Assembly: GCF_007004765.1 (NCBI RefSeq)
Contig: NZ_VIKR01000001.1
Coordinates: 1,302,001-1,366,000 of the forward strand
Direction of reading: 5' to 3'
Source of the DNA: Aliikangiella marina
GTDB lineage: Bacteria; Pseudomonadota; Gammaproteobacteria; Enterobacterales; Kangiellaceae
DNA length: 64,000 nucleotides
Shown: one piece after another, positions 1 to 64,000 of the stretch
How positions within the stretch are numbered: position 1 is the first letter of the stretch
Layout: each line of letters starts with the position of its first letter
Program-made: the position numbers and the translations under genes
The notes under the pieces: model-generated
Databases searched by the model: none
What the model was told of the DNA's origin: nothing
The model's input: the letters and a program-made list of their open reading frames with translations, nothing else

Positions 1-3000
1 TACCACTGACTGCTCATTACTTGCATTAATCTTTGAGCATAATTCTGCAATGGTAGGTGATTCAAATAATAACTTTATCTCCAGTTCGACTTGTAACTCT
101 TTTCTAATGTGACTAATAACCCGAGTTGCTATCAATGAATTCCCCCCAAGTTCAAAAAAGTTGTCGTTGATTCCAACTTGTTTTGCATTTAAGGCGCCTT
201 TCCAAATATCGCAAAGTAGCTCTTCTTGCTGATTTCGAGGCTTGACATATATGCTAGATTCATTATTGATCGGAAGATGTATCTCTAAATCATTACTATT
301 GATGCTACCGTCTTCATGATAATTAAAATGGTCAACCTTCATAATATGAGTTGGAATGGGAACCAGCTCTGATTGATTTTTAGCTACAGCATAAATACGA
401 TTATTTAAGTTTTTATTACCACTTTCTCGTTCATTTTGATTTAGTTTTAAGTAACAGGCGTAATGGATTCTATTTTGACTTTGAATCGCTTTAATGAAAA
501 CGTCATCCGTTAACTGACTTTGTTTGAGCAATTGTTCTAATTTGTCAAAAGAATAAACCCTAGCCTTCTCACTCGAACTAATTATCTCAATTAAGCGATT
601 GGGTAATACTCTAGCTAAAAAGCCACTGTTATATAATCTTTGACCAGACGACTGTGCAAACTGATTGGGGATAAAACACTCAGCGGTTAGACTAGCATTC
701 TTTGCGTAACCTAATGATATATCTGAAAACGAAATAAATAAGTTTCCTATACCACCTTCCGGTACAGCACTTAAGTCTGCATTTAAAATGTAACACGGTA
801 AATTAGTATGATTTTTGACGACCAATACATCTTTGTGTTGTTTGCCATCCAATAGAAATTGCTCAGCCTGTATATCTTTAATAACTGATAAATGACTCGC
901 AAAAAGACAACGGTTAATGAATGATTTAAATAAATCGCCACTATTGATACTGGTATTACCGATAGAGTTAACATTATTTACTACGGAGCTAGTAGACTCT
1001 GAAAAATCAATTACTTCATTGCGAGCTAGCATTACTAAATAATCAAATATTTGTACACTCGCTTGCGATTCTTTCGATAAGTCCTGAATACCTGGAAGCC
1101 TCTCATTAAATGACAATAGAGAATTCACGGATTCAATTAAAACGCTATGTGATATATCATAGTCATCACGACGACTACCAGACTCACTAGTTTGGTTGAT
1201 TATCAACGCTCTAGTACTTGGTTTGATGAAATCTTTATTCAAGTTTGCGGACGAATATTTAGATGATATCTCGAATTCTATAAAATTAAAATCTTGAGAG
1301 AAGTATCTCGCCAGTCGACTAGGCAGATCTCTATTTGATTCTTGTAAACCGAATAAAAGAGTTTTTACGTTATACTTTTCTATTAAGTGATAAATTTTTA
1401 ATCTAGGTAGTTCTTCTGGTAAATAAATAACACTTGCGCCAGTCTTTAATACTGCTAGAAGACTAATCAAAAACTCATTTGATGGTTTTATAAACAACGC
1501 AACAACTTGGCTTCCATCGACATTTTTCTCTTTTAATTTTCTTGCTAGCTGATTTGCCCGGCCGTTTAACGACTCTAAAGTCATACCGCCGTTGTTATCT
1601 TGTGCGACTAACTGTTCTGGATTGCTCTGTGCTTGTTTTTCGATGAGCTCCATTAAGTTGTTAGCCTTTGTACCAGGCGAATTATTACAATCAGATTTTA
1701 AGTATCGAATACCATTATGATCACTTAGATTTATTCGATTTACATAGGTTTCCGGTAAATGCAAATCACTAACTGGCTTATTGACATCTTCAATAGCACC
1801 CTTTAATAGCCCAACATATCTAAGTAGCATTTTTTCAATAGTTGACTCCTCATACAACGACTTATTGTAATTTATTGTACAAAGAGTACCTTTTAGATCC
1901 TCAGATATCACTAAGCCGATGTCAGTATTTGAGTAAACAATATTAGAGAGTAAACTATTGTAGTCATTGGACTGAGTTTTAAGCGTTTCAGCTTTTGCGT
2001 TACTTGTATTTCTGAGACGTACTTGAGTCTCAACCGCGAAAGAAACTTGATGCAACGGTGCATAACTTAATCCACAAATAGGGTTGATTAACTCAAGTAA
2101 CTTTGACAGTGGCAAATCTTGATGATTTTTGCTTGCCAATACAGATTGAGCGGTACTATTTAAAAACTGTTCAAATGTATCTTCTGAATCGACATTTACT
2201 AAAATCAATTGGTTATTAAAGTAATCACTCTCAGTGCCATTAGTCTGCTTGGTGTTATATGTTCCCAACAGTATTTTCTGAGAATTTGTATAACGACTCA
2301 ATAACAAAGAAAAACTCGCTAATAAAAGCACACTATAATCGACACCCTGACGCCTGCTGAGCGACTGTAACCTCACAGACAACTTTCGCCCGATTTGAAC
2401 TGAAAACTTGGCTTCTTGAAAGCACTGAATATCTTTACGTGCATAGTCAGTTGGCAATAATAAACTTGGAATACCACTGGTAAATTGTTCTTGCCAGTAC
2501 TTTTGAGACTGGAGATCTACCACACTATTCTTATGAGTTGTTAACTGGTTTTCTTCAAGTAAAGTCAAATAATTCTTGGTACCTGGAAAAGACTTGTTGA
2601 AAGTAGGTTTATCCAATATACCTTGTAACAAACAATCGGCAATGCTATTCAATAAATTTTGATAACTATTTGCAAAATTAAAGATTGACTCTTGTTCAAA
2701 TAGACTTGTATTGTAGCCCCAACTTACCGACAAACCATCTTGTTGTTCATGCACGTTGATTTCTAAATCAAACTTTATATTGGATACTTCCTTTATATTT
2801 CCAGCTTTATCAATATTTGATGCAAAATCGTTAGATTCTTGAAAATTCAAATAGCCTTTCTGAGTATTTTGCACTGCGAACAAAATTTGTACTAAAGGGT
2901 TAAAGCTTAAACTGCGCTTTGGTTGTAACTCGTCGACTAGCATTTCAAAAGGAATATACTGGTGTCCATATGCATCCAAAATAGTCTCTTTATTTTGTTT

Positions 3001-6900: not shown

Positions 6901-9900
6901 TCTGTAAGACAAGGTACTATCTTCAAAAATGATCGCCTGATTGTTTGGCGTTCTCTCTACCTGCGCTTCAAACATTTCATGAAAACAAGTGTCTAAACAA
7001 TGATCTTTTTGTGTATCATTGATGCTATTTTCCAGTAAATCTAACTCTTCATTAGTCAGTAAATTAAGTTGGCAAATAGGCAACTTCTTCTCTTCACTAT
7101 CCATGAGCGAAGATATAATTGACTCTAGCAAAACACGAAAGCTATTAGCCATTCGCTTAATGCTAGATTCCTTGAATAAATAATTTCTATACGACCATCT
7201 AATACTCAAATCATCGCTGTTTTCTGTCACATGCAGAGCTAAGTCGAAACGAATACGCACATCGCGTTCATTAAACAAACTAGCTTTTTCGCTATCATTA
7301 ATATTAGCAAGGTCTTCTTGCTTTTCTGTTTCTGTATTTTGAACAACAAATAATATCTGAAACAACGAGTTATAACTGAGATCCCTTTCTGGTCTAATTT
7401 CTTCAACCAGCATTTCAAACGGTACATGCTGATGTTCAAAGGCGTCAAATATTGTCGTTTTATTTTTAGTAAGTAATTCAGCAAAATCTAGATCATCATT
7501 AACTTCGGTTCGAACAACGATAGAGTTTACGAAAAAACCGATAAGAGAATCTAAGTCAGAGTGAGTGCGCCCAGCAATCGGCGAACCGATGACTACATCC
7601 TTCTGATTACTGTATCGGCTAACTAACACGGCAAAGGCGGTTTCTAGTAGAATAAATAGCGAAACGCCATGCTGCTCACATAAGTTATAAATATTTTTAG
7701 TTAATTCTTTATTAATAATTTGCGTAAAAGCTCTACCCTCGTATTTTTGAGTTGACGGCCGAGGTTTATCAAGTGGCAAATCATGAACCGCAGGAATTCC
7801 CGCAAGCTGCTCCTTCCAATAATCAATTTGTTTTTTGAGTAATTCGCCAGATAGCCACTGGCGTTGCCAAACCGCATAATCAGCATACTGAACTCTTAGT
7901 GGAGCAAGTTGAGACTGCGCATCAAGCACGCCGCTTTCGTAAAGGCTATTGAGTTCATCTTTAAATATTTTAATCGACCAGCCATCACCTGCGATATGGT
8001 GAATAGTATAGTGTATCAAGTGTTTACTGTCTTCGAGTTTGATTACACACAACCTAACCATTAAATCGTTCTTGAGATCAAAAGGTTTTTCTGCCTCTTG
8101 TTTTAACCTTTCTGAAACAATAGAACGCTTGCTCTCGTTTCTCTCTCCACTAAGATCTATAAACTTAAGTGGCAATTCAAATTGTGTCGCTATGACTTGA
8201 TAAACATCATCTTTATCTTCAATGTATTGTGTTCTTAATATTTCGTGTCGCCAGATAAGTGTTTCTAACGCGGCGCTAAATGCCTGCCTGTTCAAATTAC
8301 CACTATACAAGTAATAACCGGGCATATTATATTCTGTACTGCCCTCACCGAGCTTGTCTATAAACCATAATCGTTGCTGCGCATAAGATAAGGGCAGTTT
8401 ATTGTCTCTATTCACCTTCTCGACTGGAGGAAGAACCTCTTTATTAGTGGTGCTTTTTACGATTTCGGATAGTTCTTTGACTGTAGGATACTCAAACAAT
8501 GTCCGTATCGGCATTTCAATATTAAACTCACGTCTAATTGCGCTCACAAGCCTTGTTGCTAAAAGCGAATGTCCTCCAAGCTTGAAGAAATTATCATTTG
8601 TGCCTACTTTATTCACTTTGAGCGTATTCTGCCATAAGTCACAAAGCTTGGATTCTATTTCACTATCGGGCGCTTGGTATGTAGAAGCATCACTTAAACT
8701 ATCAAGAGGACTTGGTAGCGATTTTTTATCTAATTTGCCATTTACAGTCAACGGTATACTTTCGATAGCGATTACAGCTGACGGCAACATGTACTTAGGC
8801 AAATAGGCTTGAGCAGTTTTTAATATGTGATCGGTCAGCTCTCTTGTAGAACTATTCTCCAATTGTTCTCGATATTTAGTTTTCAATACAACATATACAA
8901 TTATACGACGGTCGTTCTCACTACTTTCATGAACAATCGCTACTGAGGAACTAACTGCATTGTGATTACAAATAACCTTTTCTATTTCTCCCAGTTCTAT
9001 CCTAAAACCGCGAATCTTGATCTGATGATCCTTACGTCCTAAATATTGAACGTTACCATCTGATAGAAAACGCCCTAAGTCACCCGTTTTATATAATCTT
9101 TCCTTTTCTTTAAAAGGATTAGGGACGAAATGTGCTTTGTTTAACTGTTCACTATTAATATAGCCGCGGGCAACCCCTGAACCACCAACATATATTTCGC
9201 CTTGAAGCCCTTTTGGTAATAGATTCATTTGTTCGCTCAGAATATACAATTCTAAGTGAGGTAACTTTTTACCAATCGTGCTATAAGTCAAACCTGCGGC
9301 TTCTTCTTTCTTTATCGGGTGGAAGGTTACATGGACAGTTGTTTCAGTAATTCCATACATGTTAACTAACCTGGGAGAGTCTTCTGGATGCCGTTCAAAC
9401 CAACTTTTTAGTATCGAAAAGTCTAACGCTTCACCACCGAAGATTATATTTTTAAGTGATAGCGACTTTTGTAATTTATTATCGACACTAATGACCTCTT
9501 TAAACATGGAGGGTGTTTGATTTAAGATCGTAACTTTTTCTTGTAAAAGAAGCTCATAAAAATCCTCCGGAGATTGTGCTGTTTGTTGAGGAATAATTAT
9601 CAATTTTGCTGAATTAGTTAAACAACCCCAAAGCTCCCATACGGAAAAATCAAATGCAAACGAGTGAAATAAAGTCCAAATGTCAGATTGTTTTAAGTCA
9701 AAGACTCCCTGGCACGAGCTTAGTAAATTCGTAATATTCGCATGTTCTATTAGAACACCTTTTGGATTACCAGTGGAACCTGAAGTATATATGACGTATG
9801 CCAAGCTGCTTAATATATCCTTAGACTTCAACTTAACATTGTCTTGTGATTGGCCTTCAAACAATAAATCATTTCCTAATTTATCTTCCCCCCCTTCTAT

Positions 9901-12900
9901 GCAGAGATAATTTATATTGACATTGATAGTATCCAGATAATCATCAAGTTGTTTGAAAAACGACTTTTCAGTTAATATGTTATCAATACGAGAATCGTTA
10001 ACAATAAATTGAGTCCTATTTTTCGGAATTGCGGGATCGATAGGAACATAAGCAGCACCAGCCTTAACGATAGCGAGTATACCGATAACCATTTCTATCG
10101 AACGATTAACATATAATCCAACTTTATCATCTTGGCAAATACCTGATGCGACAAGGTAATGCGCTATTTTATTGGCGCGAACGTTGAGTTCACGGTAAGT
10201 AAGACATTGTGTGCCTAAAACGAGCGCAACGCTATCAGGGTTTTTAACTACGTTTTCCTCGAATTTTTGGTAGACCGTTTTCTGGACACTTTTTTCTGGG
10301 TCAGCTTTATTCCAATCTCTTAATTGCTGTTGCCTATCTTGCTCGTCTAGTAAATCCATAGACAAAATATTAATATGACTATTGGTCAAAACCTGTTTTA
10401 TCAGATTTTGGAAATGTCTAAAGGTCTGACTAACTGTTTCACTTTTATAAAAATCTTTATTGTATACAACTGAGATAGCGTAATTATCATTTTGTTTTTT
10501 TATTAGTACATTAAGGTCATATTTACCAAATCCAAGGTTAGTATCTATATGTTCGAAATTAGTTAACTCGTTTATCGACTCTACTTCACTGTCTACTTCA
10601 TATTGAAATAAAACGTCGAACAGCACAGTTCGACTCATATCTACTTCTAATTGCAACTTTTGCGTTAATAAATCGAACGGAATATCAGAATAACGGACAG
10701 ATTCATTGAAGGTTTGATGAACTTTTTTAACAATAGAGTGGAAATCATCGTCGTTATTGAATACATCCCGAATCGGAACATAGTTCTGAAACATTCCTAG
10801 CGCTGAACTATCGTTAATTCTTTGCCTTTTATCGATGACGGCTCCAACAACAACTTCATTATGTTGGGTATATTTGAACAATAAGGCTTTGAAGGCTGCG
10901 AGAAAGAATACTTCTTCAGTGATATTAAGTTCTTTGCTCAGGTGTTTGACGGCTTCGCAACAACTCGAATCAAATTCAGAGTGATACCTCCCCTCAATGT
11001 ATTCATGTACGTGTTTACGTGGATAGTCTTGAGGTAACTCTAGCGCTTTAACATTACTCCCTAATTTAGATCTCCAGTATGCTATGTGAGGTAAATATAC
11101 CTTTGGATCCTTAGACCAACTAGATTCTCGACAAGTTAAATTATCGATTAATCTGTTAGCTTTGAGCGCAGTTTTACTTTTTCCGTTTAGTTTGTCTATG
11201 TAGCATTCGCGGATTAACTTTGACAGTAGCTTTATACTAGGCCGATCTACTAGCATATGGTGTATAGTCATTAAAAATATATTTTTATCAGCTCCATATC
11301 GTATTAGTTGAAGACTAACCAACCGCGAGCTTGTAAAATCAAAGCATTGTTTAGATTTGTTAATCGCATACTCTATCGCTTGATATTTAGTCATATCTTG
11401 AGTAATAACGCTCTCATGATACAGCTTTAGACTGTCTTTTTCCGCATCACTAATAAATAATCCAGAATCCTTTTCACTGTATACTCTTTGAGTTAGAGCA
11501 AAACTATCTAATACTTCATTTACACTTCTTTCAAGGATATTAGCGTTGCAATCACCCTCAATATGCAGCAATAGCGGTATATTATGATAAGAAGGTCCCC
11601 CCTCATATACGACTCCCCGCTCAAAGCTTTCTATAAACCAAAGTCTTTGTTGATGGAAAGAAAGCCCAAGGTCTTCAGTAACATCTGCAGCAACACTTTC
11701 GGCGTTTAAAATCAATGCTTGGTCAGGTTTGTCAAAATTTAGATCAGACAATACTTTTAACGGATTAGACAAAACTTCATCTAGTATATTGACGAATTGA
11801 GTCGATAGTAGCTCGATCGTTTCTGGTTTAAAGATCACATCTGAATATTTGAATGTTAGATTTATACCTGAATTATTATAGTTAACATACAAATCTATAT
11901 CGGTTCTTAATACTGTATTGTCTAAATCATCGTTACTTATCAATATTCCCGGAGCGGGTTCATTTTCGCTAGACTTTGTATTCTGTCGCTTAGCGTGATC
12001 ATTAGGAAAGACCAGCATAAATTGATAAATAGGATTGTAGGCTAAATCTCTTTCTGGACATAACTCTTCGACTAACATTTCGAAAGGCACGTCCTGGTTT
12101 TCAAATGCTTCCAAAACAGTGCTTTTCGACTTTTTTAATAAATCCAAAAAACTGTCCGTTTGATTAACCTCTGTTTTTAGCACCAGAGAGTTAACAAACA
12201 TACCGATAAGCTCTTCTAAATCCTTATGCACACGCCCAGATATAGGCGTCCCCATTAAAATACTTTTATTTTGACTATAGTGGCCTAATACTAATGCATA
12301 TACAGCGTGTACTAGCATAAACAACGTAACGTCATGCTGTTGACAAAATTTGTAAACTAATTTATTTAAGTCCCCACTAATATTTTTAGTCAGTTTCCTA
12401 CCAGTAAAACTCTGTTTTTCTGGTCTTGGATAATCTAAAGGTATGGAGTGAGTTTTCGGTATCCTTTGTAAATTCCCCTTCCAATAATCCAATTGTGTCT
12501 TGATTTCATTGTCATTAAGTAAAGATTTTTGCCAAATAGCATAATCAGCATATTGTAGTTTTAGAGGCAACTTAGATATCGAGTCATTCTGTTTATAACA
12601 ATAATAAAACTCCATCAGTTCTTTTTCGAATATACTTCTTGACCAACCATCGCTTGCAATGTGATGCATGGTGTATGTAATCAAGCTTCGTTCATCTGGT
12701 AAGCTAATAACGGTGATCTTAATCATTAGATCGTTGCTAAGATCAAACTTTAACTTAGCTCTACTTTCAATGAACTGAAATAGCTCTAACTTTATTTGAC
12801 TTGGCGTTGATTGAGAAAAGTCTAGATAATCGATGACCGGGTCGGTAATTGTGTTGATAACCTGGCAAGCTCCACCATTATTATCGACAATAGTTGTCCT

Positions 12901-15900
12901 TAGAACTTCGTGCCTATCTAGCAACATTGAAAATGCTTTAGCTAGTGAACTCATACAAATACTTTCATTAGCGAGAATCTTGCCGGTAACGTTGTAATGT
13001 GAACTTCCTTCACCAAGCTGGTCAATAAACCAAAGTCTTTGTTGAGCATAGGATAGTGGGATATCTCCAGATTTGGTTCGCACTGGAATTGGCATTGCCG
13101 AAGTTTTACCATGAGTTTCAATGAATTGACATAATTCAACTAATTTACTGTTTTCGAATATCGCTCGTAACGGAATTTCGACACCTAAATCACTTCGAAT
13201 AAGATTTACCAGTTTCGTCGCTAATAAAGAATGACCGCCGACCATAAAGAAGTCGTCTTCAATTCCCACTTGTTGTAGTTCTAGAACAGTTTGCCAGGCT
13301 TCGCACATCTTTGACTCTAAGTCAGAACTCGGAGCTACATAATGGGTTTTTACAAGATCAGATTCGCTAGGTTCCGGCAGCCTTTTACGATCGAGCTTGC
13401 CAGTTTTTGTTAACGGCAACTCTTCGACAAATATAAATATTTGAGGAACCATATATTCGGGAATAGTGCCAGATAGTTGTTCCTTGATACTCTTTACTAG
13501 TGACTCTTTCTTTCTTATGAGTTCAGCCTCTTCTTCAGCGGCTAGCAAATTACTATCGGCTAAACACACGTATGCAACTAGCCTACTATCGTTAGATTCT
13601 GTTTTAAAAACAGATACGGCGGACTTACTTATCGCCTGTTGTGCATTTAAATAATTCTCAATATCGCCAAGCTCGATCCTTAGTCCTCTCAATTTAACTT
13701 GATCGTCAGTTCGTCCAAAATACTCGAGCACAGGCTTCTCATTGTTATTGAATTGCACCCACCTGACAAGATCGCCCGTTTTATATAAAATTCTCGAATT
13801 TGACTCTTTGATAGGGTTAGTTATAAATTTTGAACGAGTCAAAGCAGTATCATTCAAATAACCATCTGACAAATCATTACCGCCTATATATAGTTCTCCA
13901 ACTATACCAGGCGCGCAAAGTTGTAGCTGCTTATCGAGCACAAACGAAGGTTTGTTACTCATAGGTGTGCCTATTGGGCTATAAATGCTCGATATATTTT
14001 CTGATATCGCTAACTGATTCAGTGTTGCACCGACTACAGCTTCAGTTGGACCATAATGGTTAAATAAAGCGGCTTTTGGAAATAAACCGCGCAGCTTATT
14101 GACTAAAGAATTGGCAAGCGCCTCCCCTCCTATTACAAAGCTATGATTAGTAAGACTAATTTCGCTTTCTTGTTCTTCTTTATACTCATTAATCAATAAG
14201 CTCAAGTGACTAGGAGTAAGTCTTATTAACTGGGGTGCTTTTAATTCAGTTAACTTTCTCTTTAATTCGCCTATTTCATCCCCAACTGTCATCAATTGAA
14301 CTGTTCCACCTGTCATAAGCGGTAAAAACAACGACGGTAAAGTCAAGTCGAAATTATAAGCGGTTAATACTAAAGCCCCACCTATACCCGTACTATAATA
14401 TTGATTTAATGCTTCGACACAATACCCGAATAACGCCTTGTGTTTTACGACCACTCCTTTAGGTACTCCCGTTGACCCAGATGTGTATATTACATAGGCA
14501 ATATCTTGAGGACTTATTTGGACGTTAATATCAATATCAGAAAATGATTCTAAAATGCCCGCAACGTACTTGCTATCTACGGGTACTGCTTTCACTCTTT
14601 CAAAAGAGATCTCTTCCATCAATTCGTTTTGCGTTAAGACCAAGGGGCAATTACAGTCTTGGAGAATCGTGTTGATCCGCTGTTGCGGCATATGGGGATC
14701 GATTGGTACAAAAGCATGTCCGGCTTTTAATATTGCTAAGATAGCAGTCATCATTTCAGATGACCGCTCCATACATATGGCGATTTTACTATTAGATGCT
14801 AACTTTTGATTTTTAATAAGAACAGCTAGTCTATTTACAGCTTGGTTAAGTTTTTTATAGCTTTGCTGATCGGTTAGTGTAGATACTGCAACGTGTTCAG
14901 GAGCAACCTTAGCAAAATGCTCAAAGCATTTTATAACGTCGTCGCCCTTAAATTGAAATCTATTTTCTAACGGTATATCTCTAATAAATACATCGGCTTC
15001 ATTTTTAGAAATTAGGGCTAAATCGCTGATTCTCTTTGAACCATTTTCAAAAATATCTGAAAGAATATTATTTAAATATTGATTAAACCTCTCGACGGTA
15101 TTGTCATTAAATATATCCGTCGCATAACGCCAGGTTATACTGATGGTATCTTTTAATTCTTGTACGCTAATATAAAGGTCATGCTTAATATTATGCACGA
15201 TCTCTTTCTCGACACTATCTTGATTCTTGTAATATCGACTTTTTTGCCTTGCATCAACTGATTTGACGTTAGACAGTTTTAACGATGACTGCTGATTATT
15301 CTGAATATCCAATTTGATTTGATATAGTGGACTATAACTTGCGCTTCTTTGCGGGTTAAGCTTTTCCACCAATACTTCAAAAGGTATGTGCTGTTGACTA
15401 AAGGCATCTAAGATCGTTTTCTTGTTGTTTGTCAAAAACTCTTCAAATGTTAGTTCATTATTGACATTTGAACGAATAACTAAGTCATTAATGAAGAATC
15501 CCACTAGATTTTCTAAGCTCTTTTGATTACGACCACTACTTGCAGTACCGATTACGATATCATTTTCACCACTATAACGACTAAACAACACAACTAATGC
15601 TGATTGAATAAACATAAAAATGGTCGTTCCATGTCGATTATTAAAATCTCGTATTTTTCTAGTTACTTTGTCGTCAAAAATGTATCTTTTGGTTTTTCCC
15701 TTGTAAGTTGGTTTAGGCGGTCTGGGGTTATCCAAAGGAATACTATGTACATGAGGTAACCCTTGGAGATGATTTTGCCAGTACTCTATCCCTTGTTGGA
15801 TTACCTTTGCGCTCAGATAGTCACGTTGCCATTTTGAATAGTCAGCGTACTGAATCGTTAACTCAGGAAGTTTATAATCTCTATTGCTTATTATGGCATT

Positions 15901-30193: not shown

Positions 30194-30360
30194 TAGATTA
30201 ATCCTTACAAGAAGTGTTAACTTCTACTTTAAATTAAAACCTCAATTACGTTTTCAAGCCATTTGTCTGTGACTCGAGGAACATTTTCAGGGTTATAGGT
30301 TTAAAGATATTAAACCGCTACTATAACTTGTACTTTGTTCAATCATTACTGGACGATAGC

Positions 30361-34215: not shown

Positions 34216-37200
34216 TAAACGGTTTCTTTTTCGAGACCACTTTCTATGAATTGAGCCAGCTCTCGAATAGTGGGGTATTTAAATAGATGTTTCGCCGCAA
34301 ACTTAACTCCACACTCTTCCGCTGCTGAAATTAATCCAATAGCACGAATTGAATCACCGCCCACAGAAAAATAGTTACAATCAATGCCTAACTCTTGCAA
34401 ATCAAGTTTGTCTTTCCAAAGCTCGATTAGTTTTGATTCTAATTCAGTACTAGGATTCACAAGCTTAGGGCCTACAACAGGCTTTGAAGCAAAAGTCCTC
34501 AATAATTCTATAGTGTTTAGCAACCCTGATCTTAAATATGGAAATTGCTTACTAATAAAGACTTTCTTGGGTAGTGGGGATATATTCTTTCCACACCTAA
34601 TCTTGTCTCGGAGTCTTTTAACTTTATTCTCATTCGATAGTACTTTATGTTTATCTTCTAAATAGAGTTCTAATCCATAACGGTCATTTAATGACTCAAC
34701 GACAAAACAATTATGAGTTATCTGAACATGATGCTGAACGACTTCTGTTAATCGCGTCGATCGCTCCCCGGAGAGCAACCGTGCTGTTCCCAAGTCATCT
34801 TTTACAGGCTCTAGTTCAGAAAATGTACCGATATCTTCTAAATAAATTTCTTTATTTCCTGCGAATCTTGTCGAGCGATTAAGCTTCTGGCCAAAGCTTA
34901 ACAATGGAATTGAGCCCAATTGAACGTCAGGCGTTTCTACTAACTGTTCTAATAAATACAAGTAACTATTGACTAATCCTTGAACTGTGTCTTTTTTAAA
35001 CAATCGCTTATCAAAATCCAACTTTCCTACAATATCATGCTCTCTTTCGAGTAACATAAGCGAGAGTTCGTGTCGAGCAACGACATTACTGTCCGTTGCT
35101 AAGAATGTTTGCTCAGAATTTTCAGGATAAGCAACTAGTTTAATATCAGATTCATTTTCATTGGCTGCAGGTATATTTTGCAATGCAAACATAACTTGAT
35201 AAATCGGTGAATATTCACTAGAACGCTCTCCCGCGACTTGATCAACTATTTTATCAAATGGTAGTTCCTGGTGAGCAAAGCACTCGAGTGTTGTGTTCCT
35301 AATTTGTTTAACAAATTTGGTGAAGCTGAGATTAGGATATAATTGTCCTCTAATAGGCAGGCTATTTACAAACAAGCCTATCAACGACTCTAATTCACTT
35401 CTAATTCTCCCCGCTAATGGCGTTCCAATCGCGAAATCATTGCAATTAGAAAATTTACTCAGCGTGACAAAATAAACTGATATCAGTAACATGAAGTTAG
35501 TTATATTATGCTCAGCTGTAAAGTCCTTAATTTTTTTAAGAAGCTTACCACCTATCGAAACTTTTACTGTTCCGCCTTGAAAGCTTTCGCCTAAAGCCCT
35601 GGACTCCTCTATAGGCAGCGTCAAGCAAGGTGGCATACCGTATAATTTTCGTGACCAATAAACAAGTAACTCCTGTAGCCAATCACCTTGCAGTCTAGCT
35701 TTTTGCCATACAGCATAATCAGTGTACTGTAGCTCAGTATATTCAATCGGTTCTTGAGTAGCACTTAGTATAGACTGATACCTTTTTAGAATATTATTAA
35801 TTAGTATTCCTATTGACCAGCCGTCTGAAATACTGTGATGCATAGTAATAAACAAATAGTATTCTTTATTTTTCGGCTCAACTTTTCGCACCAACTTGAC
35901 ACGACACAAAGGCTCCTTAAATAAGTCAAACCGATAGTTTTTTTCATGAAAATATAAGCGCTCAAGCTGTTCTGTTGAAGTTACATTCTCTATCGTTATA
36001 CCAGGAACTTCGTGCAGCAAGTGAATTAGTTCGCCGCCGACTTGTTGAAAACATGATCGTAAAATATGATGCTGATCAAATAATTCGCTCAAACTATTGA
36101 TTAAAGCTTTTTCTGAAACACTTCCTTCCACCTTTAATGCCACAGGTATATTATAGGCGTTTTTCATTCCCATATACTCAGTCAAAAAGAGCATTCGTTG
36201 TTGTGCAAATGAAAGAACCTTTGGCAGTTCACTACGAGCTGGAACAACCTTATCGGTTAAATATTTATCTTTATCACTTGACAGCAAACCTTCAATATAA
36301 GTCGCCTGCTCTACCAGTAGTTGCTTATCAAAGATTTCTGCAATAGAAATTTCCACATTAAATACATCTCTAATTCGAGAGATTAGTTGCGTAACTAATA
36401 AGGAATGACCACCTAAGTCAAAAAAGTTATCCAATTTCCCGAGTTCTTCAGAATTTAAAAGCTGGCGCCAAATGTTAGCGAGAATGTGTTCAACCTCTGA
36501 CTCCAGAGCCACTTTAACAACGTTTGACTGACTGGGAATATAGGATGGTAACTCTGACTTATTGAGTTTTCCATTTTTTGATACCGGTAGGTGGGTTATG
36601 CCGATAAATCCGCTTGGCATCATATAATCAGGCAAATTGGAACGAACCTGAAGAATCAATTCGTCCACCAAACTTTGTTCCAGTTGGATCTCTAAACCGG
36701 TTGAACCGACATTTTCTAACTGTTTAGCGGCAGGAACTACATAAGCTATTAAATATTTTTGCTCTGAAGAAAGTTCTAGCAAGTTAACAGTAGCAGTTTT
36801 CACTCGATTACTTTTAACTAGTACCCGAGTGATTTCTTCTAACTCGATTCTATATCCCCTGATTTTAACTTGGTGATCAATTCTGCCGAGATATTCAATA
36901 TTTCCATCCGCTAATAAGCGCACTAAGTCACCAGTTTTATATAGTCTTTGCTGGTTGTCATCTATATGATTAGGAATAAATTTTTCTGCTGTTAAGCCTG
37001 GTTGATTAACATAACCTTGAGCCAACCCGACACCGCCGATTAATAATTCACCACTACAACCGGATGGGATCAGTTGAAGGTTTTTATCGACGACATAGAG
37101 TTTTATATTATGGATTGGTTTACCAATCGGCACACAGGATAAATTGTTATCGAGGCTACAATGCCAAGCAGAGACATCAATTGCTGCTTCCGTAGGGCCG

Positions 37201-43060: not shown

Positions 43061-46000
43061 TTCATCTTTTATGCTAGCTTCTACGAATTTCACTAATTCA
43101 TCAAAGCGAGAATTTTGAAATAGATCTTTTAACTTTACTGTTATTGAATATTTTTCGTTAAGCCTAGCAATAACTTTTGTGGCCAATAGTGAATTACCGC
43201 CTAGTCTAAAAAAACTTTCTTGAAAGTTAAAATTAGAGATACCTAAAACCTCTGACCATACCTTAAACAACGCGTTTTCAGTTATTGTACGCGGGACATC
43301 TGGCTTAACTTCATCACTCCTAACCTCTCTTTTTAATTTATCTAGATCGTATAAGCCATAACTATTTAATGGTAAATTGCCTAGCCGGAAACATGAATGA
43401 GGAAGTCTATTTAGTCGCTCAGCCTTCTTTACATGTTGACTTACTTTTTTAAACACATCCGAACTCACCATTTCCCGGCCAATACTTTTATCTGATGATT
43501 CTATAAAGCAGGTCAGCTTTTTACTCAATCGAGAATCATCTATTTCAGCCATCAAACTATCACAGACAAAGTCAAGACTATTTAAGCATTCTTCCTCATA
43601 AGCAAAGCAACCGGCTAGATTAGATATGTTTTCTTCTTCATCCAATATCACAATGCTTTTATCTGCATTAACTTTCGCTTTAATTTTTGTATTTATAATC
43701 CGTCGACCTTGTTGGCATGAAAATGGATTGGGAAGAAAGTAAGAGGCTTGCTCTACAGCACTGACACCGACTTGCTCACTCGATTCTTGCTCTGCTATAA
43801 AGATGTCGCCACATTGATCGACGTCTGTAGGTTCGAGTTGATCATCTAACACCAGCAGGTTTTCACTAAGATATAACCTGTTGGCTTCATCAGTATTTAT
43901 CATTTCATCAATATAAAGTGAAGTAGACTCACTATTAGATGAGCTAGACCCATTATCTGTCTCGGCTAATACATTCAGTAAATCTCTTATTAGCCTAAGA
44001 TCTTCGGAACTAATATTTTTTAATATTAAATAATCATCAATTGAGTCAATACTTTTCGCTAAGGTAGATAATTGTGCGTAATTCAAAGTGCAATACTTCA
44101 ACCTGGACTCGTTGTTATGCCAACTTAAACATAAAGCAGCGCTATTCTGTGCTGGATTATTGTGATCAAACTTAATTCGCGCCGAGCATTTCTTAAAATT
44201 TGGTAGTACCAATCTTTCTACTATTGATGATCGACTTTGTTGATCAGTAATTATTAGTTCAAGCTTTAACTCTTGAGCATTATTAGCAATATAAAGATCA
44301 GGTGCTTCAGAATCTAGTATCACACAACAACCACCTAATTTGAGAACTGCTATTGATGTTAAAATACGGTTAACCTGGCCACGGCAAAGAATTCCTATTT
44401 TAGGATTAGTAGATAACTCTCTAGAAAGCGCTTCACCTACTATTTGGTCAGACATCCAATCTATATCTTGGCTTGTCAGAGTTTTTTCTTCAATATTGTA
44501 TGTAACACTTGAACTATGGTTAGCAACTATATTTTTGAGTAATTTACTGGGTGAGCGCATATAGGCGCTAATGTCTTTCGACCGATATATTTCCGTTAAT
44601 TGCTCTCTCTGTTGACCTATCACTAGGTTACTAGCATATATATTCCCCTGCGGATCATTAACGAACGCTGTTATAAGTTGTGTGAAATTGCTTAATAGAC
44701 GCTTTATTGTGGTTTCTTTGAATAAATCGGTGGTAAACTCCATATCACCAACTATAAGACCATTACTCTCCCTCAGAGAGAATGACAGATCATACCTTGA
44801 TACTTGGTTGTACTCCTTAAAATCGAATAATCCGCTCTCAGTCAATGATAAAAGCTGCACACCACTGAGTCCATTGTTATCTATCGGTGAATTTTGAAAG
44901 GCAAACATCACTTGAAATAGTGGCGAAATATTCCCTTCCCTATCCGACAACAAACTATCAACCAGCACCTCAAAAGGCAGTTCTTGGTTAGCATACGCAT
45001 CGAGTGTTATTTCTCTTGCTGACTTAACGGTTTCCAGAAAGCTATGATTGTTTTCAAGTTTGAAACGCATGACCAGCATATTTACAAAAAATCCGATTAA
45101 TGCTTCCAGTTGACTATGGGTACGGTTAGCCACAGGGCTACCTATAACAATATCTTTTTTGTTCGTATATCGACTAAGCAAGATCGAGAATACTGTTATG
45201 AAAAACATATATAAAGTAACACCATGGCCATGGCAAAAACTTTTGACTTTAGAAGTAACACTTCGCCCCAAACTAAATTCCACACTACTTCCTTTGTAAC
45301 TGGGTTTACTAGGGCGCGAGAAGTCCGTTGGTAGATTTGAATTTAAAGGAAGATCGCTTAACTGACGTTTCCAGTAGCCAAGTTGGTTTTTCATACTTCC
45401 ATTCAATAGCATATCACGTTGCCATTCACTATAATCTACATATTGAATTGGCAGTGTCGGCGCTTTGTAAAGACTATCCTTAAGCTTCTCGCTATAATTT
45501 GATTTAAACTCTTCAATTAATACACCAATTGACCATCCGTCAGAAATAATGTGATGCATAGTAACCGAGATGATATAATTGGCTTTACCATCCTCTTTGC
45601 ATTTAACAATCTTCACTCGACACAAATCGTCTTCGTAGAGGTTAAATTTAAACTCTCTCTCTGCTTCAAATAAACTCTTGACTCTATTCAAATCACTTTC
45701 ATCTTCGATAATAAGATCAAAATTTGATTCGCTAATAAGCTGCACCAGCTCACCGTCTAGATTTTTAAATCGACTCCTTAAAACCTCATGACGTTCAATA
45801 ATATCTTGCAGACTGTCCAGCAAAACATTTTCATTGACCTTTCCAGTCATTACAAATGCAACAAATATATTATATATATTGTTCGCACCTATATATTCGT
45901 TAGCTAACCACATTCTTTGTTGTGCAAAGGAGGTAGTTAAAGCCTTATCTCGTTCGGCTTTTTCTATCGGATTGACTCGGTGAGAACAACTACCCTTTTT

Positions 46001-49000
46001 ATGATCGACGAACAATGCTAACTTTTTTAGTGTTTTTTGAACAAAAACCTCTTTTAATGTTAAATTTAATGAGAAAATATGATTAATTCTATTTAACAGT
46101 TGGGTTGCGGATATAGAATTCCCCCCAATTTGAAAAAAGTCATCTTGCGGCGATATATTTTTTATACCTAAGGTATCCGACCATACACCTGCAACAATTT
46201 CTTCCGTAGGCGACATTCTTTTAGCGCCCTTTCCCCTTTCTTTTTTATCCAGACCTATTAATTTAACAAAGTTGATTTCGCCATTATTCTTTGTTGGCAA
46301 AGTCTCACTAAAAAGGATTCTCGTTGGCAGCGGCGTCAACGACTGGCATCGCTTAAGTCGCTCACGAATATTTGACTGTAGCGAGTTACAAGAATCACTA
46401 GCAACTTTCGTTTCTACAAAACATTGTACAAAAGATATTGGAGAGTTACAGTCCCTTTGCAAATATATATGTTTTAAATTTACTGCCTGATCAACCTGTT
46501 CATTCAGCACATCACTTACCACTGGGGCGATGCAGCTAAAATCGGAATAAATCTTCTTTGTGTCGATTTTTTTTTGGGGATAGTTACTTTTATTTTTATT
46601 AAGAACCAAGACTTCTTGACCGTCTACACTCAAGGATATTAATCGACTATCAACAGCCTTATTGCCATCATTGTTTAAACGTAAAAAGAACCCCCTATTC
46701 AGTATCGCCGTGAAACCATGACACATATTGTCTACAATTTGCTTATCTTGGTTAATTACAACTTTTAAAGGAGACACCTTATGTTCCTTTAAGTTACTTG
46801 AAAGGCGGAGTTTTGTCGCGAGCCATTCTAGTTCTTTTGGATAATTAGACGCTAAAGATTCACCAATCTGGGTCGAAAAAGTATGTTTTAACATCCACTC
46901 TAGATACGCATGTGTTACGCCGACCATTTCAAACTGACCACTATCATTTGATAGTAACTCAACAACTGCACTATTCCTTACATCAAAATTGGACTCGTGT
47001 TTCTGATAGTGGTCTATAGTAAATAAACATAAAGCGCTACTGCTATCCACATTGTAAACTTTAAGTAAATCGCCATCATTTATGTAAACACTTTTCGCAA
47101 TATTCCGTTCGGTTATTATTATGTTAGCATTTGACAACTGTAACGCAGCTCTAATTTTCAAGGCCGGCCAAGCAGGATCAATCCTAAGAAAGCAAATCTG
47201 GCGCTCCATCAGCATCGAAGCAATTCGGCTTTGCTCGTTCTCATCTTTTACAATCAATGCAACCAATACAAAACTTTCGTTTAAAGCATCGGTGACACCG
47301 TTCCATTTTGGCTCAGATTTATCTGATAGAATTTTTTCTAACCAAGTTTCAAATATAGTTGTATCGGTTCCATATGCAATCCTTGTAGATATTTCTTTTG
47401 CGATTGTTTTAATAGACTTATTATCCAAATTCGAGTCACGCATATTATTTGTGGATTTGCCGTTAGCAAAACAATTCAAATCGCCAATACTCTGCTCATG
47501 ACTCTTGGACATTGAGACAACTATTTGTTTGAACACCTCTACTAATCGGCATATCATGCTATCGCTATAAATTGCGGACTTGAAATTAAACTTGAAATCT
47601 ATCGTTTTAGATACATATATAACTAATGTTAAAGGAAATTCTGTTCCTTCTTTACTATAACAATTGGTCACCCTTAATGAAGAACCATCTACTCCAAGAG
47701 CATCACCTAATGAAGAATTAATAGGATAATTCTCAAATACTAGTAAACTATTGAACAATGATTGGTTCTCTCTCAAACCAAGCGCTTTGCTTATTTCTAC
47801 TAAAGATAAAAAGCTAAACTCTAAACTTTCTTGTTGTCGAGCACTTATCTCTTTTAGCCACTCCGATATTTTTTGGCTTTTGTCGATTTTTACTCTAACA
47901 GGAATGGTATTAATGAACAGACCAATCATGTTTTCTATACCATCAACAGGTACATTACGGCCAGATACAGTCTGACCAAATACAACATCATTTTCGTTAG
48001 AAAACAAGTAGTTTACGTAAGACCAGGCAGCTTGAAAATATGTATTTATAGTTACATTTAAATCCTTAACAACACGTTTAACCGCAGCTGACTGATGTGA
48101 ATTCAAATTCAAGACAACTTCTTTTGAAGATACGGAACTCGACTCCATCTCCAAAAGGCTATTTTGGCATTCTTCATGTATCTTTACCCCATCTAACTCT
48201 CGACACCAAAAATCTCTCGCCGATTTGTAATCTTGATCAGTTAGCCATTTAATAAAAGCTTTATAAGGCACTCGCTCTGTGAGCTCAAACTCTCGATGCT
48301 TTTCTAAAGAAAAATATATTCTAAACAAATCACCTAATACACTTGAAATACTCCAACCATCGAGCAAGCAGTGATGATGAGACCAAATCAAGCATGTCTC
48401 ATCTTGTGACATTTTGATTAAATACAAACGCATCAAAGAGCCAGCGTTTAAGTCATACGGCTTTGTCTTATCTGTTTGTAATAGCGACTCCTTCTTTTCG
48501 CGTTGTTCTTCGCTTGAAAACCTTTGCCAATCAAGCTCGTACCACTTTAAATCACAACGGCTTAATACAATCTGAACCCAATCTTCGGATTGATAATTAG
48601 CAAAAGCCGTCCTAAATATTTCGTTACTTTGTACTAGTTTACTCCAAGCATTTTTAAGATGTTTCGTATGTAAAGTACCTTTAAGTTCAAACACTAGCTG
48701 AGTCGTATAGGAATGTTTTTTATTATCTAACAAACTAAGATAAATCAATCCTTTTTGCATGTCTGTTGTAGGGTAAACGTCTTGAAATTCAGGGTATGCA
48801 TTAATCCAAGAATCCAATTTTAGGTATTCTGGCTTTACTAACTCAAAATCGCTTGGTGTAACACTACTATTAGTTTTGCAATGAGAAATTATAAATCTTA
48901 TATTTTCTCTAAAGTCGTTAATAAACTCGTTTATATCTTTAGTTGAGAACTTATTAGTACTAATATCGATATTACAAGTGAGTAGTTCATCTTTTATCCA

Positions 49001-56600: not shown

Positions 56601-56945
56601 TACGTAGCTCTTCAAACAGCGCCACTTGCTCAGGTTTTGGCTTATCCCGCCAATCAAGACGTTCCCAAGCAAGCTCTACATCACTCAAAACCATTTGCAA
56701 TGGCTGCTCTTGGTCCAAGGCAATAAAAGCGGTCCGAAAGATATCGTATTTTGACAGGATAATTCGCCATGCTTTCTCGAAAGACTTAGCGCAGAAATCA
56801 CCATCAAAATCTAAACATACTTGAGTCGAATAGGCTCTATTATCATTTTCCAAAAGACTTTGCAGAACCATACCCAATTGCATTCCTGTGGCTGGATAAA
56901 GATCTTCAAGGTGCGGATACTGTTTTTGACACTGATCTAACGATA
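53662..56945 (-). other. NRPS-A module 3: C-A(Ser)-PCP
   Basis: The C domain carries HHHSLLDGWS and follows an E domain. The A domain is complete (YTSGSTGKPKG, FDVSVWEFF, LHFVPSML, VFCSGEAL, NLYGPTEASIDV, YRTGDLARH, SNGK). The code DVWHFSLIDK corresponds to serine. The PCP has FFELGGNSL. There is no E domain, so L-Ser is predicted before hand-over to NRPS-B. The last 30 or so residues are acidic and resemble a C-terminal docking peptide. Confidence 0.88.
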
Positions 56946-59900
56946 TTTGATCAATTTTTGCTAGTGGAAAATCACTTGGCGTCAAGGTGTTTGCTACTGG
57001 AGCCAGGCAATGATTGATTATCTCACTCAATGTTTCACTAAAACGACTCGTTATCCTATCTATTTGGCTCTGACTAAAGTTGTTTGAGCTGTAATTAAAC
57101 GTAAATCGTAATTGTCCCTCACTAACTAATCCATGAATATTAAGCAAATAACCGAATGGGAAGTTAATATCTACATCAGCGCCAGAACTTTCACCGGTTG
57201 GCTTAAAAAAGTTATCATCTTTTAACTGTTGATCAAACTGACCTAAATAGTTAAATACGATTGGAGAGCGATTAATACTCGATAACTTATCAATAACTTT
57301 GTCTTTAGACAAATAACGCAGCACACCAAAACTCAGTCCCTTATCTGGAACCGCTCTCAACTGTTCTTTAATCGACTTAATTACTTCCCCGACATGCTGG
57401 CAATTTACGTTTTTTAGGTTTAAGTTCACTGTATACAAACTGGTAAACCAACCAACTGTTTCGCTTAAATCAACCCCCTCAAATAATGCCTCCTCTCGAC
57501 CATGCCCCTCTAAGTCTATTTGCACATTGTTTTCACCACTAAACTCTCTATACGCTAAAAACAATGCACATAGTAAGAGCTCTTGTACGTGTGTTCGATA
57601 AGCGCGAGAACTAAGACTTAGTAAATTTTCAGTCTCTCTCTCTGACAAACTTATAACGACTTGATTAGTTTGAGGGAGGTTATAATTATAATTTTCTTGG
57701 TCATTATTTTCAGGGTCAATTGAGCCTGCGACTAACTGTTGACGCCAATATCCAATGTGGTCTTTTATATCAGTAGCATTAGCATACTCGTGAATTTTAT
57801 TCGACCAGTCCTGATAACTGGTAGTTTTTTCGCCAAGTTCAATCGTTTTAGATTCAAGCCATTGTCGATAGGCCATCTCTAAATCACTTAATATAATTCT
57901 CCAACTCACTCCATCTACAACTAAATGATGAATAACGATTAATAGTCGACTCTTCTCTGGGCGTTTAGCTTCCAAATAAACGATACGAATTAAAGCCCCC
58001 TGTTGAAGATTGAAACTAGATTTCACATTAAAACCGATTCTTTCGAGTTCTCTAGTTTCATCACTTTCTTGGTACTCGATTACTGAAATAGTATTTCTAA
58101 CAAGATCCTCAATATCTTCTTCATATCTACCTATCCAACCAGTCTCCAGTTTCTCATAGCTAAGCCTTAAGGCGTCATGCCTAGAAAATAATGCTTTAAC
58201 AAAACTTGGTAAAAAATCGCTAGAAAACTGGTTAGGTACAGACAAGACTTGCGACTGATGAAAATGGGAGGCTTTTTTGGCTTCTTTTCTAAAAAACCAC
58301 TCTTGTATCGGAATTAAATTGGCCCTACCTACTGATGGTACTTGTTCAATGTAATGATCGTCGGAATGCGCAATGTTAGCTAGCCCAGAAATAGTAGGAA
58401 ACTTAAATAAATCCCCCATACTAAACCTTAGCCCGGCGGCCTTCGCTCTAGCGACTAACTGAATCGATAATATAGAATCTCCACCTATCATAAAGAAGTT
58501 ATCATCAACACTTATACTATCTATTCCTAAAATATCACGCCAAATATCGTAAATTAGACTTTCTTTATTTGTCGATGGTAAAAGGACATTATCCGAATGT
58601 CGTTTTTGTCGCAAGTTAAGTACTGACTTTACATCTAATTGATTCTTACTCGTCAGAGGGATTGAATCTAATGAAAATGACTCGCTAGGCAAGGATAATA
58701 ATTCAGATTTTCGTCGTAGTTTGGCATTAAGGTACTTTAATATTTCAATATCACCGGAACCTTGAGCGCTTTTTTTAGGTTTCTCAAAAAATAGACAAGA
58801 TGTTTTAACTGATTTTGATACCGCTACCGGTACCAGGTACGCCTTAGATATGGCAATATCTTTTAAATCTAATAGATGGACACCAGAATCGACAGAATAA
58901 GGTCTTTTATAAAGACTTAAATTTTTATCTTCTAAAAGCTGGAGTCTACTATCTGATAAGTATCGCGCTTTGTAATGTGTTGGATAAAAATTGAATGCGC
59001 AATCGCGATTATTTGCTGCGGATAAGCTTATGGCCACTTGTTCGTCGAATAGCGGCTTTTCTCCCCTAACATCTAGGCTACTTGATAAATATAGATCGCC
59101 AGTAATTCCAATCGGTACAATTTGATTATACTGATCAAGCACTACCAAATCTCTACTCATTTCCTGAACATCGGTCGCTAAATTCATTTTTGAGCAAGCC
59201 GCTTTAACATCAGACAGCACCTTACTAACCTGAATATTTTCTTTACCATTTAACAAAGCATTCAGTACGCCTAATAGTGCAAGAGTTGTATCTCCAGGGT
59301 AAGCATTAACTACCTCAACTAAAAACTCGAATCCTTTGAAATTTAACTGTAATAGGTTCAACAGTTTATTTTGCGCGACTAAACAAGAAGATAGTTTCCC
59401 ATTATTTTCCGTTGTACATAGAGCTATAGCAAAGTCGCTTGGCTTAACTTCCACTTGAGGAATATCACAAGATATAATTTCTTGATTATCTGGGTATCTA
59501 GAGCCGGAACCTTCTTCCGAGGCATGATATAACCTTGATATTGACGTGTGCCTTAATAGCTTGTCGGCATATGATTGAGACTCACTACTAGACGGAACTA
59601 ATAAAGATGTCACATTATGAAGTTCGACAAGGTGAGCAGCCCTAAGTATTGGCTGGCTTAAATCAATGCTTACCAAGGTCGCACCCGCTTTAAATACTGC
59701 AAGCATTGCAACTACTGACTCTATTGACGGTTGGGTAACGACTCCCAATCGAGAATTACCGGATATGCCCTGTGCAATCAAATAATTTGCTAAAAGATTT
59801 GACTGCTTTTCAAGTTCAATGTAACTAACTTTATTATTAAGTTCACTTGTCAAACAAGACTTGTCTGCTTTTTTAGCAACGACATTTCTAAACGCTTCTG

Positions 59901-62900
59901 CAACCGAATTGAAATTAAGTTTCGATACTTTTGATTTGTTATTGGCATTCCATGGTAGCGAATTATCAGTAACATTATAGTAAGGTATCTCCAACACGCT
60001 TTTAACTTCATTCTTTAGAAATGAATCTAATATAGTATCGAAGTGAGATAATACCTGTACTGCAGCATCAGGGTGCACTTTAGATTTATCAAAACTTAAT
60101 GCTACCTTAATCTGTTCGCCGGGAATAACGACTAATGTAAGCGCATAATCGGTCCCTTCTTCGCTATGAATGTTCGTCAAATCAAAACCTAACTCCTCGT
60201 TGATAGGCGAATCATTTGTGTTTAACTCATCACCTAGTGGATAGTTTTCAAATACAATTAAGCTTTGGAAAAGTGGTGTTTTACTTGAGATTCGACTTAA
60301 TTTTTGGATTTCGCTTAGCGGAAGATAACTATATGTTTCACGGCTAGTTTGACTTTGATTTAGGTTTCTTAACCAATCGCTGATTGTAGGACTCTCTGAA
60401 AAATCAACTACTACAGGCAATGTATTGATAAACAACCCAATGATACTTTCTACGTTGTCTAAATCGATAGAACGACCAGAAACTATTTGCCCAAATACTA
60501 CGTTTTCGTCACCGCTGTATCTGTGTAATAAATAAGCCCAAGATGCTTGAAACAATGTGTTTAACGTAATCTCGTGCTGCTTTGCTAACTCCTTCAAGTT
60601 AGCTGTGCGTTGCTTGTCAAATATTATTCGTTCTTTGTGTAATCCTTTGGTACCTGGTTCAACTTCAAGCTGATTAACTTGCAAGTTGGTCGGCTTGGTG
60701 ATTTTTCTTAACTCATTGCGCCAGAAATCTTTCGCGATATCACTATCTTGATCGATTAACCATTTAATATAATTACGATACTTAGTAACTGGAGGAAGTG
60801 AAACAGCGGTATTAGATCTTAGTTTCCGATAGACTTCGAAAAGCTCTTTTAATACTAAAGCTACACTCCATCCATCTAATAGACTGTGATGATGGGTCCA
60901 TAACCAACGATAGTGACTATTTGATAACTTAAATAGGCTCATTTTCATAAGTGGAGCGCTGTTATATTCAAAACCGTTAGCTTTTTCCTTTTCTGATAAA
61001 TCCCTTACAAACTGTGTTTGTTTAGATGCATCTAAAGCACTAATATCATTGATGTTCCAGTCTAATTTTACTGCGCTTAAAACTACTTGTAGCGCTTGTC
61101 TGTTTTCACCATTGAGTAGCGCGGTCCTAAAAATAGCATGGCGATCAACTAATTTTTCCCATGATGTTTTAAACACATCGGGTTGAAAACCACCCTTAAA
61201 ATCTATTGATATTTGAGAAACATAAGCTTTATTTTCTTCATCCATTAGACTATGAAACATTAGCCCCATTTGCATACCCGTCGCTGGATATAGATCTTCC
61301 ATGTTTGGATAGTCTAACTGCAATCGCTCAAGTCTTTTTGAACTGATTTTAGCTAGACTAAAGTCACTAGGCGTGAAACATTGGTTATCGATGGTTAAAC
61401 AATGATTAATAATTTCTTCTAGTGAATTGTTATAAAGCTTAATTAGCTGCTGAATACTCGTCTCTTGAAATTGCTGCAAATAGTAATCTATTGCAAAGTA
61501 CAATTGTTCATCACGAACCGAGCAGGTGAACGTCAACATATGATCTTGGCAACGCGAGCGACTGACATCCGGGCCATGTTCCTCGTCAGATAAAGAAAAC
61601 TCGCTTTCTTTATCATCAAATTTTTTAAACTTTCCAAGATAGTTGAAAACTAAGTCAGCATCTAAAGCTGATAACTTTTCGTGATATTTTCCATTTGACA
61701 GGTAACGAAGTAAGCCATAATCAAATCCTTTGTTAGGAACATTACGGAGCTTTTCTTTTACAGTTTTAATAATATGCGAGATTTTCCTGTCGCTATCGTT
61801 TACACTTGATTTGAATGATACAGGATACATAGAAGTAAACCAGCCAACAGTTTCACTTAAATCGACGCCTTCAACCACTTCTTCTTCGCGGCCATGGGAT
61901 TCTAGGTTGATGCGCAACGAATCCTTACCACTCCACAATTGATATGCCATAAACAAAGCGGCTAATAATAATTCTTGAGGCTGGGTATTATAGGCTTTAC
62001 TGCAAACGGTCAATAAGTTATTTGTTTGCTTTGCATTTAACCTTCCTAACTTTCGCTTTACTGTCCCAAAACTTGGTAAATTGTCAGGTTGATTATCCGC
62101 TTGTATTAAATCAATTTTAAGCGCCGCTTCTTTTAGCCAATATTCCCTGCTAATAATAGGCTTACTGTCATTCGCGTATAAATTCACCAATTTAATCCAT
62201 TCTTGATAGCTGGTGGTTTTTTCACCAAGCTTCACTCTTCGAGTTTGCTTCCAAGATCTATAGCTTTGTAAAAAATCCTCCATTAAAATACGCCAACTTA
62301 CACCATCGCCAATAAGATGATGCATGATAATTAATACCCTATCTTTGACAGGCGAATTCATTTTAAAGTGAACGACTTTAAAGAGTGGCCCATCCATGAG
62401 ATCAATATTTTCCTTAATCTGATTACACTTAGTAACAAACTCCTTTTCTAGGTCTGATGAACCGATATCAGTTAGGTCTACTTTAATTAAACTTTGAGCG
62501 ATCAAGTCGTCAGTTAGGATCTTAAACTCTCCATGCCAGCCTGTTTTTTTCTTCTTATAAACAAGCCTTAAAGCATCATGACGTTCATAAACCGCTTTTA
62601 GAAATTTTTGTAAAAATTCAGAATTAAAATCATGAGGTACTTTTAATAATCGAGATAGTAAAAAATAATTAGATTCTTGACTTTTATTTTCAAAGAACCA
62701 ATGATGCATCGGCAGTAAATCAACTTTACCTTTTGAAGATCTACTAGGATTTCTATTTTGTTCAAGCACCTGGCAATGCTTAGCTAAAAGCTTTATCGTA
62801 GGAAATTCAAAAACCTGACGGACATTGATTAATAGTCCTTCCAGCTTGGCTTTAGACACAATTTGTATAGAAATTATTGAGTCTCCACCTATTGCAAAAA

Positions 62901-64000: not shown

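Follow-up and report, generated by a model that had tools for sequence, protein, structure and literature searches.

Nonribosomal peptide synthetase modules without adenylation domains in an Aliikangiella-like gammaproteobacterium, and a SyrC-halogenase cassette that may load them

What becomes of a nonribosomal peptide synthetase (NRPS) module that keeps its condensation (C) and carrier (PCP) domains while its adenylation (A) domain is lost; is it skipped, or is its amino acid brought from elsewhere? The question is raised by a 64,000-nucleotide stretch of DNA (the window; C1 positions 1302001-1366000 of a 5.34 Mb genome) from an Aliikangiella-like gammaproteobacterium, in which all five large minus-strand frames are NRPS genes. 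An earlier note on this DNA had counted five A-less modules among 18, the other 13 having intact A domains, and had argued against skipping and in favour of loading in trans, by a neighbouring A domain or by a stand-alone A enzyme, or of a non-canonical role. Our own HMMs and motif scans give the same counts, one of the 18 modules being clipped by the window's right edge. More NRPS genes lie on both sides of the window, and with profiles made from the region's own domains we find 47 C-containing modules over ~183 kb (about 1199 to 1383 kb), of which 35 have an intact A domain and 12 lack one. An Rfam search of the window returned no match, and the open-licence literature yielded nothing on Aliikangiella together with a nonribosomal peptide. 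The reading that we favour, while leaving considerable room for others, is that the A-less modules work and that loading from a shared cassette has replaced their dead A domains.

All five A-less modules of the window are encoded on the minus strand, each with a C domain, what is left of an A domain and a PCP. M5 of P0005 (58369-61299) has its degenerate A at 58564-60000 and is followed on its 3' side by an epimerization (E) domain with HHLVVDG (57001-58305; a TIGR01720 stretch, P0005 residues 2203-2356). M8 (46007-48784, degenerate A at 46205-47491) and M9 (43082-45949, degenerate A at 43280-44644) both belong to P0004, M12 of P0003 (34245-36230) retains only a 161-aa remnant at 34440-34922, and M21 of P0001 (28-3936) has a degenerate A at 226-1776 and a second C domain (1777-2559) of which half is gone. 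In our motif scan, A3, A5, A7 and the A10 lysine are absent from all five, and HHxxxDG and GG[DN]S are present in all five, just as the earlier note had read them. Over the whole region, A3 and A5 occur in 35/35 intact C-containing modules and in 0/12 A-less modules, and each of the 12 has a C domain with an HHxxxD motif (HHIICDA in II-M4) and a carrier serine; M3 still keeps YKTGD, and M24 an NGKV. The A loss that the note read in each of the five modules is confirmed, but its extent differs, with 161 to 517 aa remaining between C and PCP. For all 12 modules the range is 161 to 526 aa (three remnants have 232-242 aa), except in M3 and II-M4, both beyond the window, where a methyltransferase domain lies within segments of 749 and 753 aa. 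Intact A cores in these segments would have refuted the note's claim; neither the motif scan nor Pfam revealed any. Pfam AMP-binding matches two of the five window linkers, in the N-terminal part only (61 and 45 bits versus 279 for an intact neighbour), and AMP-binding_C matches none of the five. The note had also stressed that every frame is open; the long open frames are there, but they are weak evidence for module use, because a stop codon would cost the chain every module further along it as well.

Of the 12 A-less modules, seven are found beyond the window, with M3, M24 and M25 encoded by the NRPS genes that adjoin it on the right and left and another four by a second NRPS block at 1199-1247 kb. 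The region has several other features. At its N-terminus (G000:C1:1378278-1382637), the first NRPS protein (8991 aa) carries stretches resembling methyltransferases and, in tandem, four carrier-like repeats (DSMELLE/DSMELVE), and no ketosynthase was seen there when looked for by eye. M19 (window 8458-13071) and II-M5 (G000:C1:1232434) each show a C domain, a second C domain with HHMLxDR and then a Thr-coded A domain, an arrangement that we take to be that of dehydroamino-acid modules. One gene (G000:C1:1276536-1280753) holds two A domains with equal Pfam scores and equal codes, which suggests a recent module duplication. A carbamoyltransferase gene stands between NRPS genes and adjoins the window on the left (G000:C1:1299579-1301594), which would allow for a carbamoylated product. 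In the DNA that separates the two NRPS blocks (G000:C1:1247705-1258586) we recognized by eye TauD-like hydroxylases, a cysteine-synthase-like enzyme, an Asp/Glu racemase-like protein, methyltransferase-like proteins and a peptidase-type ABC exporter with an HlyD-like partner.

The stand-alone A enzyme that the earlier note had envisaged does have a candidate in the flanking DNA. A cassette on the NRPS strand lies 20-25 kb past the window's right edge, upstream of the first NRPS gene; it encodes an MbtH-like protein (G000:C1:1390658-1390936; PF03621, 67 bits), a type II thioesterase (G000:C1:1389833-1390630), a SyrC-like alpha/beta hydrolase with GYCSGA (G000:C1:1388901-1389743), a stand-alone A protein (G000:C1:1387415-1388926), a stand-alone PCP with GVSSL (within G000:C1:1387138-1387410; PF00550, 40 bits) and a PhyH-family chlorinating enzyme (G000:C1:1386165-1387085; TIGR01762, 438 bits against a cutoff of 226). 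A CmlA-type diiron hydroxylase, a trypsin-like protein and one further frame separate the cassette from the first NRPS gene. The code of the stand-alone A, DAFWLGGTFK, is Val-like by the specificity tables. The chlorinating enzyme is of the SyrB2/CytC3 type (E 1.5e-120 to 2fct and 1.7e-111 to 3gja) and has HxA where the facial triad has HxD, its WHQAD aligning with the WHQAD of SyrB2. In a P. syringae-group locus (L073), the ORF that follows SyrB2 encodes a homologue of the hydrolase (E 3.4e-17), and GxCxG is common to both; we take this L073 protein to be SyrC and the Cys of GxCxG to be its nucleophile. Judged by sequence, the cassette protein is SyrC-like and has the Cys motif, and a transferase activity is inferred. 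A shuttle role for SyrC has been described (PMC8949500, PMC8748450). The A protein and the PCP meet the description of a dedicated A-T pair made as two separate proteins, for which the loading activity is likewise an inference.

How might such a cassette serve modules on other proteins? The stand-alone A, with MbtH, would load its amino acid onto the stand-alone PCP, where the SyrB2-like enzyme could chlorinate it; the residue carried there is thus probably Val-type and chlorinated, although its identity is inferred. The SyrC-like Cys hydrolase would then pass the aminoacyl group on to the PCPs of the A-less modules, whose C domains would use it like any other residue. M5 is followed by its E domain, and two A-less modules beyond the window keep methyltransferase domains. 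The dead A domains would remain as a scaffold in the C-A-PCP chain, a role that is again inferred. The scheme has precedents. Syringomycin biosynthesis (SyrB1/SyrB2/SyrC/SyrE) likewise combines a SyrB2-homologous halogenase, a SyrC-homologous GxCxG protein and an A-less acceptor module (PMC8949500); it differs in having a Thr-coded A-T didomain in place of a Val-coded A and a PCP as separate proteins, and in having one acceptor, whereas here there are up to 12 candidate acceptors with A remnants. The cassette also contains the same elements as the cytotrienin set, a stand-alone A (3vnq match), a stand-alone PCP and a chlorinating enzyme (3gja match). Presumably these roles belong to CytC1, CytC2 and CytC3, respectively. 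The cassette differs from the CytC set by an additional SyrC-like protein and by its place next to very large NRPSs with A-less modules.

If the cassette loads A-less modules, the two should occur together, and for the most part they do. We compared 13 genomes with C-modules around the cassette (the window genome included), 11 of which have three or more such modules, with 15 NRPS-rich control genomes of the same order, whose NRPS regions were covered in part; 14 of the 15 controls have no halogenase match at E 1e-5, and G202 has a 56% SyrB1-type one. A module was counted as A-less when it lacked both A3 and A5 and had a linker of >100 aa. Remnant-bearing A-less modules make up 26 of 124 C-modules in cassette genomes and 1 of 132 in controls, or 25 of 124 without G403_106773, which by sequence, judged by eye, is an FkbH-like loading module. 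Counted by genome, A-less modules with remnants are present in 8/11 cassette genomes versus 1/15 controls (Fisher p = 0.0008), and leaving out the window genome gives 7/10 versus 1/15 (p = 0.0017). Three cassette genomes with three or more C-modules show no A-less module (G399 0/5, G400 0/3, G405 0/4), though only part of each cluster was read, and the single C-module of G407, like that of G410, is intact. The comparison has caveats: the controls represent a single order and were chosen for NRPS content, the cassette genomes are spread over several groups, and modules within one genome are not independent. The count also leaves out the second contig region, C8, of G003, which shares the genus of the window genome and whose halogenase locus matches that of G398, Aliikangiella coralliicola M105 (13 C-modules in C8, one of them A-less with a 56-aa linker), and the surroundings of cassette loci L031, L038, L044 and G006; G058_215383, scored A-less by the HMM although its motifs are present, was not counted. 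G402_88784 was excluded from the 26 since A3 is present. At that position (C9 ~88784 of Massilia sp. CFBP 13721) the A domain ends after A3 and is 96% identical to the neighbour's A, perhaps through a recent deletion or an assembly collapse.

The cassette itself recurs in other genomes. A scan of named genomes gave 233 relatives of the halogenase, of which the best 80 were taken as loci, and 18 of these 80 (L027-L044, with beta- and gammaproteobacterial titles) are at least 65% identical. Among the 18, a stand-alone A adjoins the halogenase in 17 and the hydrolase is found in 15, with GYCSGA, GVCSGA or GFCSGA; the A code could be read in 17 and is DAFWLGGTFK in 13, with near variants in four. 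The remaining 62 of the best 80 present another picture, with DFW[NS][VI]GMVHK, which we take to be a Thr-type code, in 43 of the 48 whose code was read. Four Burkholderia loci (G406, G408, G409, G411) have the cassette and no NRPS modules nearby.

The nearest rival to cassette loading is that intact A domains of neighbouring modules or subunits load the A-less modules, and that the cassette feeds only one residue elsewhere. That an inactive or truncated A domain can be complemented from elsewhere is already established in print. In fungal SidD/Nps6 and SidC, a module with a truncated, inactive A ('dA') is loaded by another module's A (PMC10192304), and three remnants of the window genome, those of 232-242 aa, resemble a fungal dA without ~290 N-terminal residues; there the loader is an in-line A, and neither a stand-alone PCP nor a halogenase or shuttle is mentioned. 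Complementation of an A domain that is inactive, truncated or missing also occurs, or is proposed, in albicidin/cystobactamid, ramoplanin/enduracidin, WS9326A, capreomycin (with CmnI) and thalassospiramide (a proposal) (PMC7539972 among the sources); in the sources consulted, each has one or two such modules or trans A domains, and a shared pseudo-A lineage is not described. Additionally, A-less modules can exist without the cassette: G058 has two, one of them with a remnant, and no such halogenase, and G083, where the cassette is absent, has one without a remnant. What speaks against neighbour loading is that A-less modules are associated with one cassette across genera, and that the cassette's Val-type code is unlike most neighbouring codes in the window genome. 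We therefore regard neighbour loading as a serious but distinctly less probable account than loading by the cassette.

NRPS modules can also be skipped, and the A-less modules might be bypassed, or the chain passed on without a residue, their C and PCP domains being kept by chance or by architecture. Skipping should relax the constraint on the C domain, and a collinear match with Rheinheimera sp. SA_1 (G404) bears on this expectation. Five consecutive modules of that genome (28038 to 44319) have as their best C matches M20 to M24, in order, and A-less modules pair twice, G404_32478 with M21 (the second C is decayed in both) and 44319 with M24. The lead of the best C over the next best is small (2-6 points, and 1 point for 44319), so it is the module order that carries the match; the collinearity does not continue past these five modules. 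C domains of the two A-less pairs are 51 and 49% identical, close to the 52-54% of the three intact pairs, while the remnants are only 23 and 25% identical versus 45-48% for the A linkers of the intact pairs. In other words, the C domains have kept pace with their neighbours while the A domains decayed, which loading from elsewhere, unlike skipping, would predict. Relatives with inactive C and PCP domains would have told against the earlier note; in Rheinheimera, the A-less modules have C domains with HHxxxDG and both PCPs have their serine (as GCHSL in 44319). The PCPs are less uniform, at 56 and 42% identity in the A-less pairs versus 56%, 71% and 56% in the intact pairs, and the 42% of the M24 pair is a point that skipping can claim and one that weighs against cassette loading. 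The retention of E and methyltransferase domains is hard to square with skipping, as is a clean copy of a pseudo-A into another module of A. coralliicola. There, two A-less modules have degenerate A regions that are 91% identical, amid C domains with 40% and PCPs with only 46% identity, and the copied segment starts at the NDTEANYP stretch after C and stops at ALP after A10; the dead A has thus been copied between modules as a working A would be. The modules look used, as the earlier note had held, and on the collinear match we reject skipping as the main explanation, considering it unlikely.

Could the degenerate A regions instead have acquired a catalytic role of their own? The degenerate A domains are, on codon statistics, under purifying selection in the related MAG G397 and more weakly in G003. 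Three pseudo-A segments of G397 lack the A5 region at the same place and have dN/dS of 0.17-0.20 (0.17-0.22 for its intact A domains), with every quarter below 0.3; the estimate is rough, with dS of 1.3-1.4 in two of three pairs. Should the common deletion be ancestral, the domain was already inactive when these changes arose. The pseudo-A pair of A. coralliicola has dN/dS of 0.44 (fewer nonsynonymous than synonymous changes per site; Fisher p 1.1e-4). Many remnants also have a signature in common. The aromatic residue and proline that are usual at A9 occur in 73 of 77 intact A domains (of 87, the 77 whose linkers are of ordinary length), and LxxLP is found in only one of the 77; it is found in 16 of 17 remnants of three genomes (11/12 in the window genome, 3/3 in G397, where the aromatic residue is also kept, and 2/2 in G404), the two methyltransferase-bearing remnants having been covered by a separate regex scan of the part before the methyltransferase. 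None of eight aligned remnants of G003, G401, G402, G403 and G324 has LxxLP, so a single origin for all remnants is unsupported; we read the motif as the probable mark of one pseudo-A lineage in three genera, with separate losses elsewhere, though convergence is not excluded.

Against a catalytic role stand the absence of A3 and A5 from all 12 A-less modules, the wide spread of remnant lengths within one genome and the low identity of remnants between matching modules. For the M21 remnant, no match among 60 relatives was better than E 1.2e-12. The remnants of the window genome, too divergent for dN/dS, may be under little constraint and, given that divergence, may have only a slight role of their own. 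The fold predicted for one remnant is A-like with low confidence in the middle part (mean pLDDT 59.8), which is weak evidence because the prediction's alignment leaned on intact A domains. We consider a new catalytic role very unlikely. The A-less modules, moreover, do not share a type of C domain, a possibility that we tried and rejected: on a tree of 108 C domains (25 from A-less modules) the state changes 19 times versus a shuffle mean of 22.7, with values as low or lower in 15 of 1000 shuffles and in 5 of 1000 within genomes. Clustering this modest means that A-less modules come from many backgrounds. Their PCPs cluster beyond 1000 of 1000 within-genome shuffles, which favours loading by the cassette. 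Finally, repetitive NRPS genes can misassemble, and G402_88784 is a possible case, but an assembly or annotation artefact can be dismissed here: the 12 remnants diverge from one another within long open frames, and another genus has matching modules.

Loading by the shared cassette, of all or some of the A-less modules, thus remains the most likely reading; it is unproven, inferred from gene content and conservation, and supported by no biochemistry or known product. Several observations sit uneasily with it. The four A-less modules of the second block are 140-190 kb from the cassette, the cassette can occur with no A-less module and A-less modules without the cassette, and SyrC serves one acceptor module (PMC8949500), versus up to 12 here. 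More tentatively still, and at less than even confidence, we suggest that these modules belong to a 'trans-A' NRPS lineage, in which a conserved inactive pseudo-A travels in one piece by recombination from module to module, and any module that receives it is thereby switched to the residue from the shared SyrC-A-PCP-halogenase cassette. The lineage would be the peptide counterpart of the trans-AT polyketide synthases, in which many modules lack a loading domain, remnants are kept and a shared trans enzyme serves them; here the assembly lines are NRPSs and the missing domains A, there PKSs and AT. What would be new is the scale, the shared cassette and the mobile conserved pseudo-A: our searches of the open-licence literature brought up neither a single cassette of this kind that serves many A-less modules nor a mobile conserved pseudo-A.

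An NRPS family of this kind would have practical consequences. If the cassette serves many modules, the rule of one A domain per residue, on which product prediction rests, would break down systematically here, and one enzyme would allow a guess at the residue of the A-less modules. Additionally, an NRPS could shift to shared loading module by module, and the swap of an inactive domain could change the residue that a module incorporates, which could be a handle for placing a halogenated residue at chosen positions.
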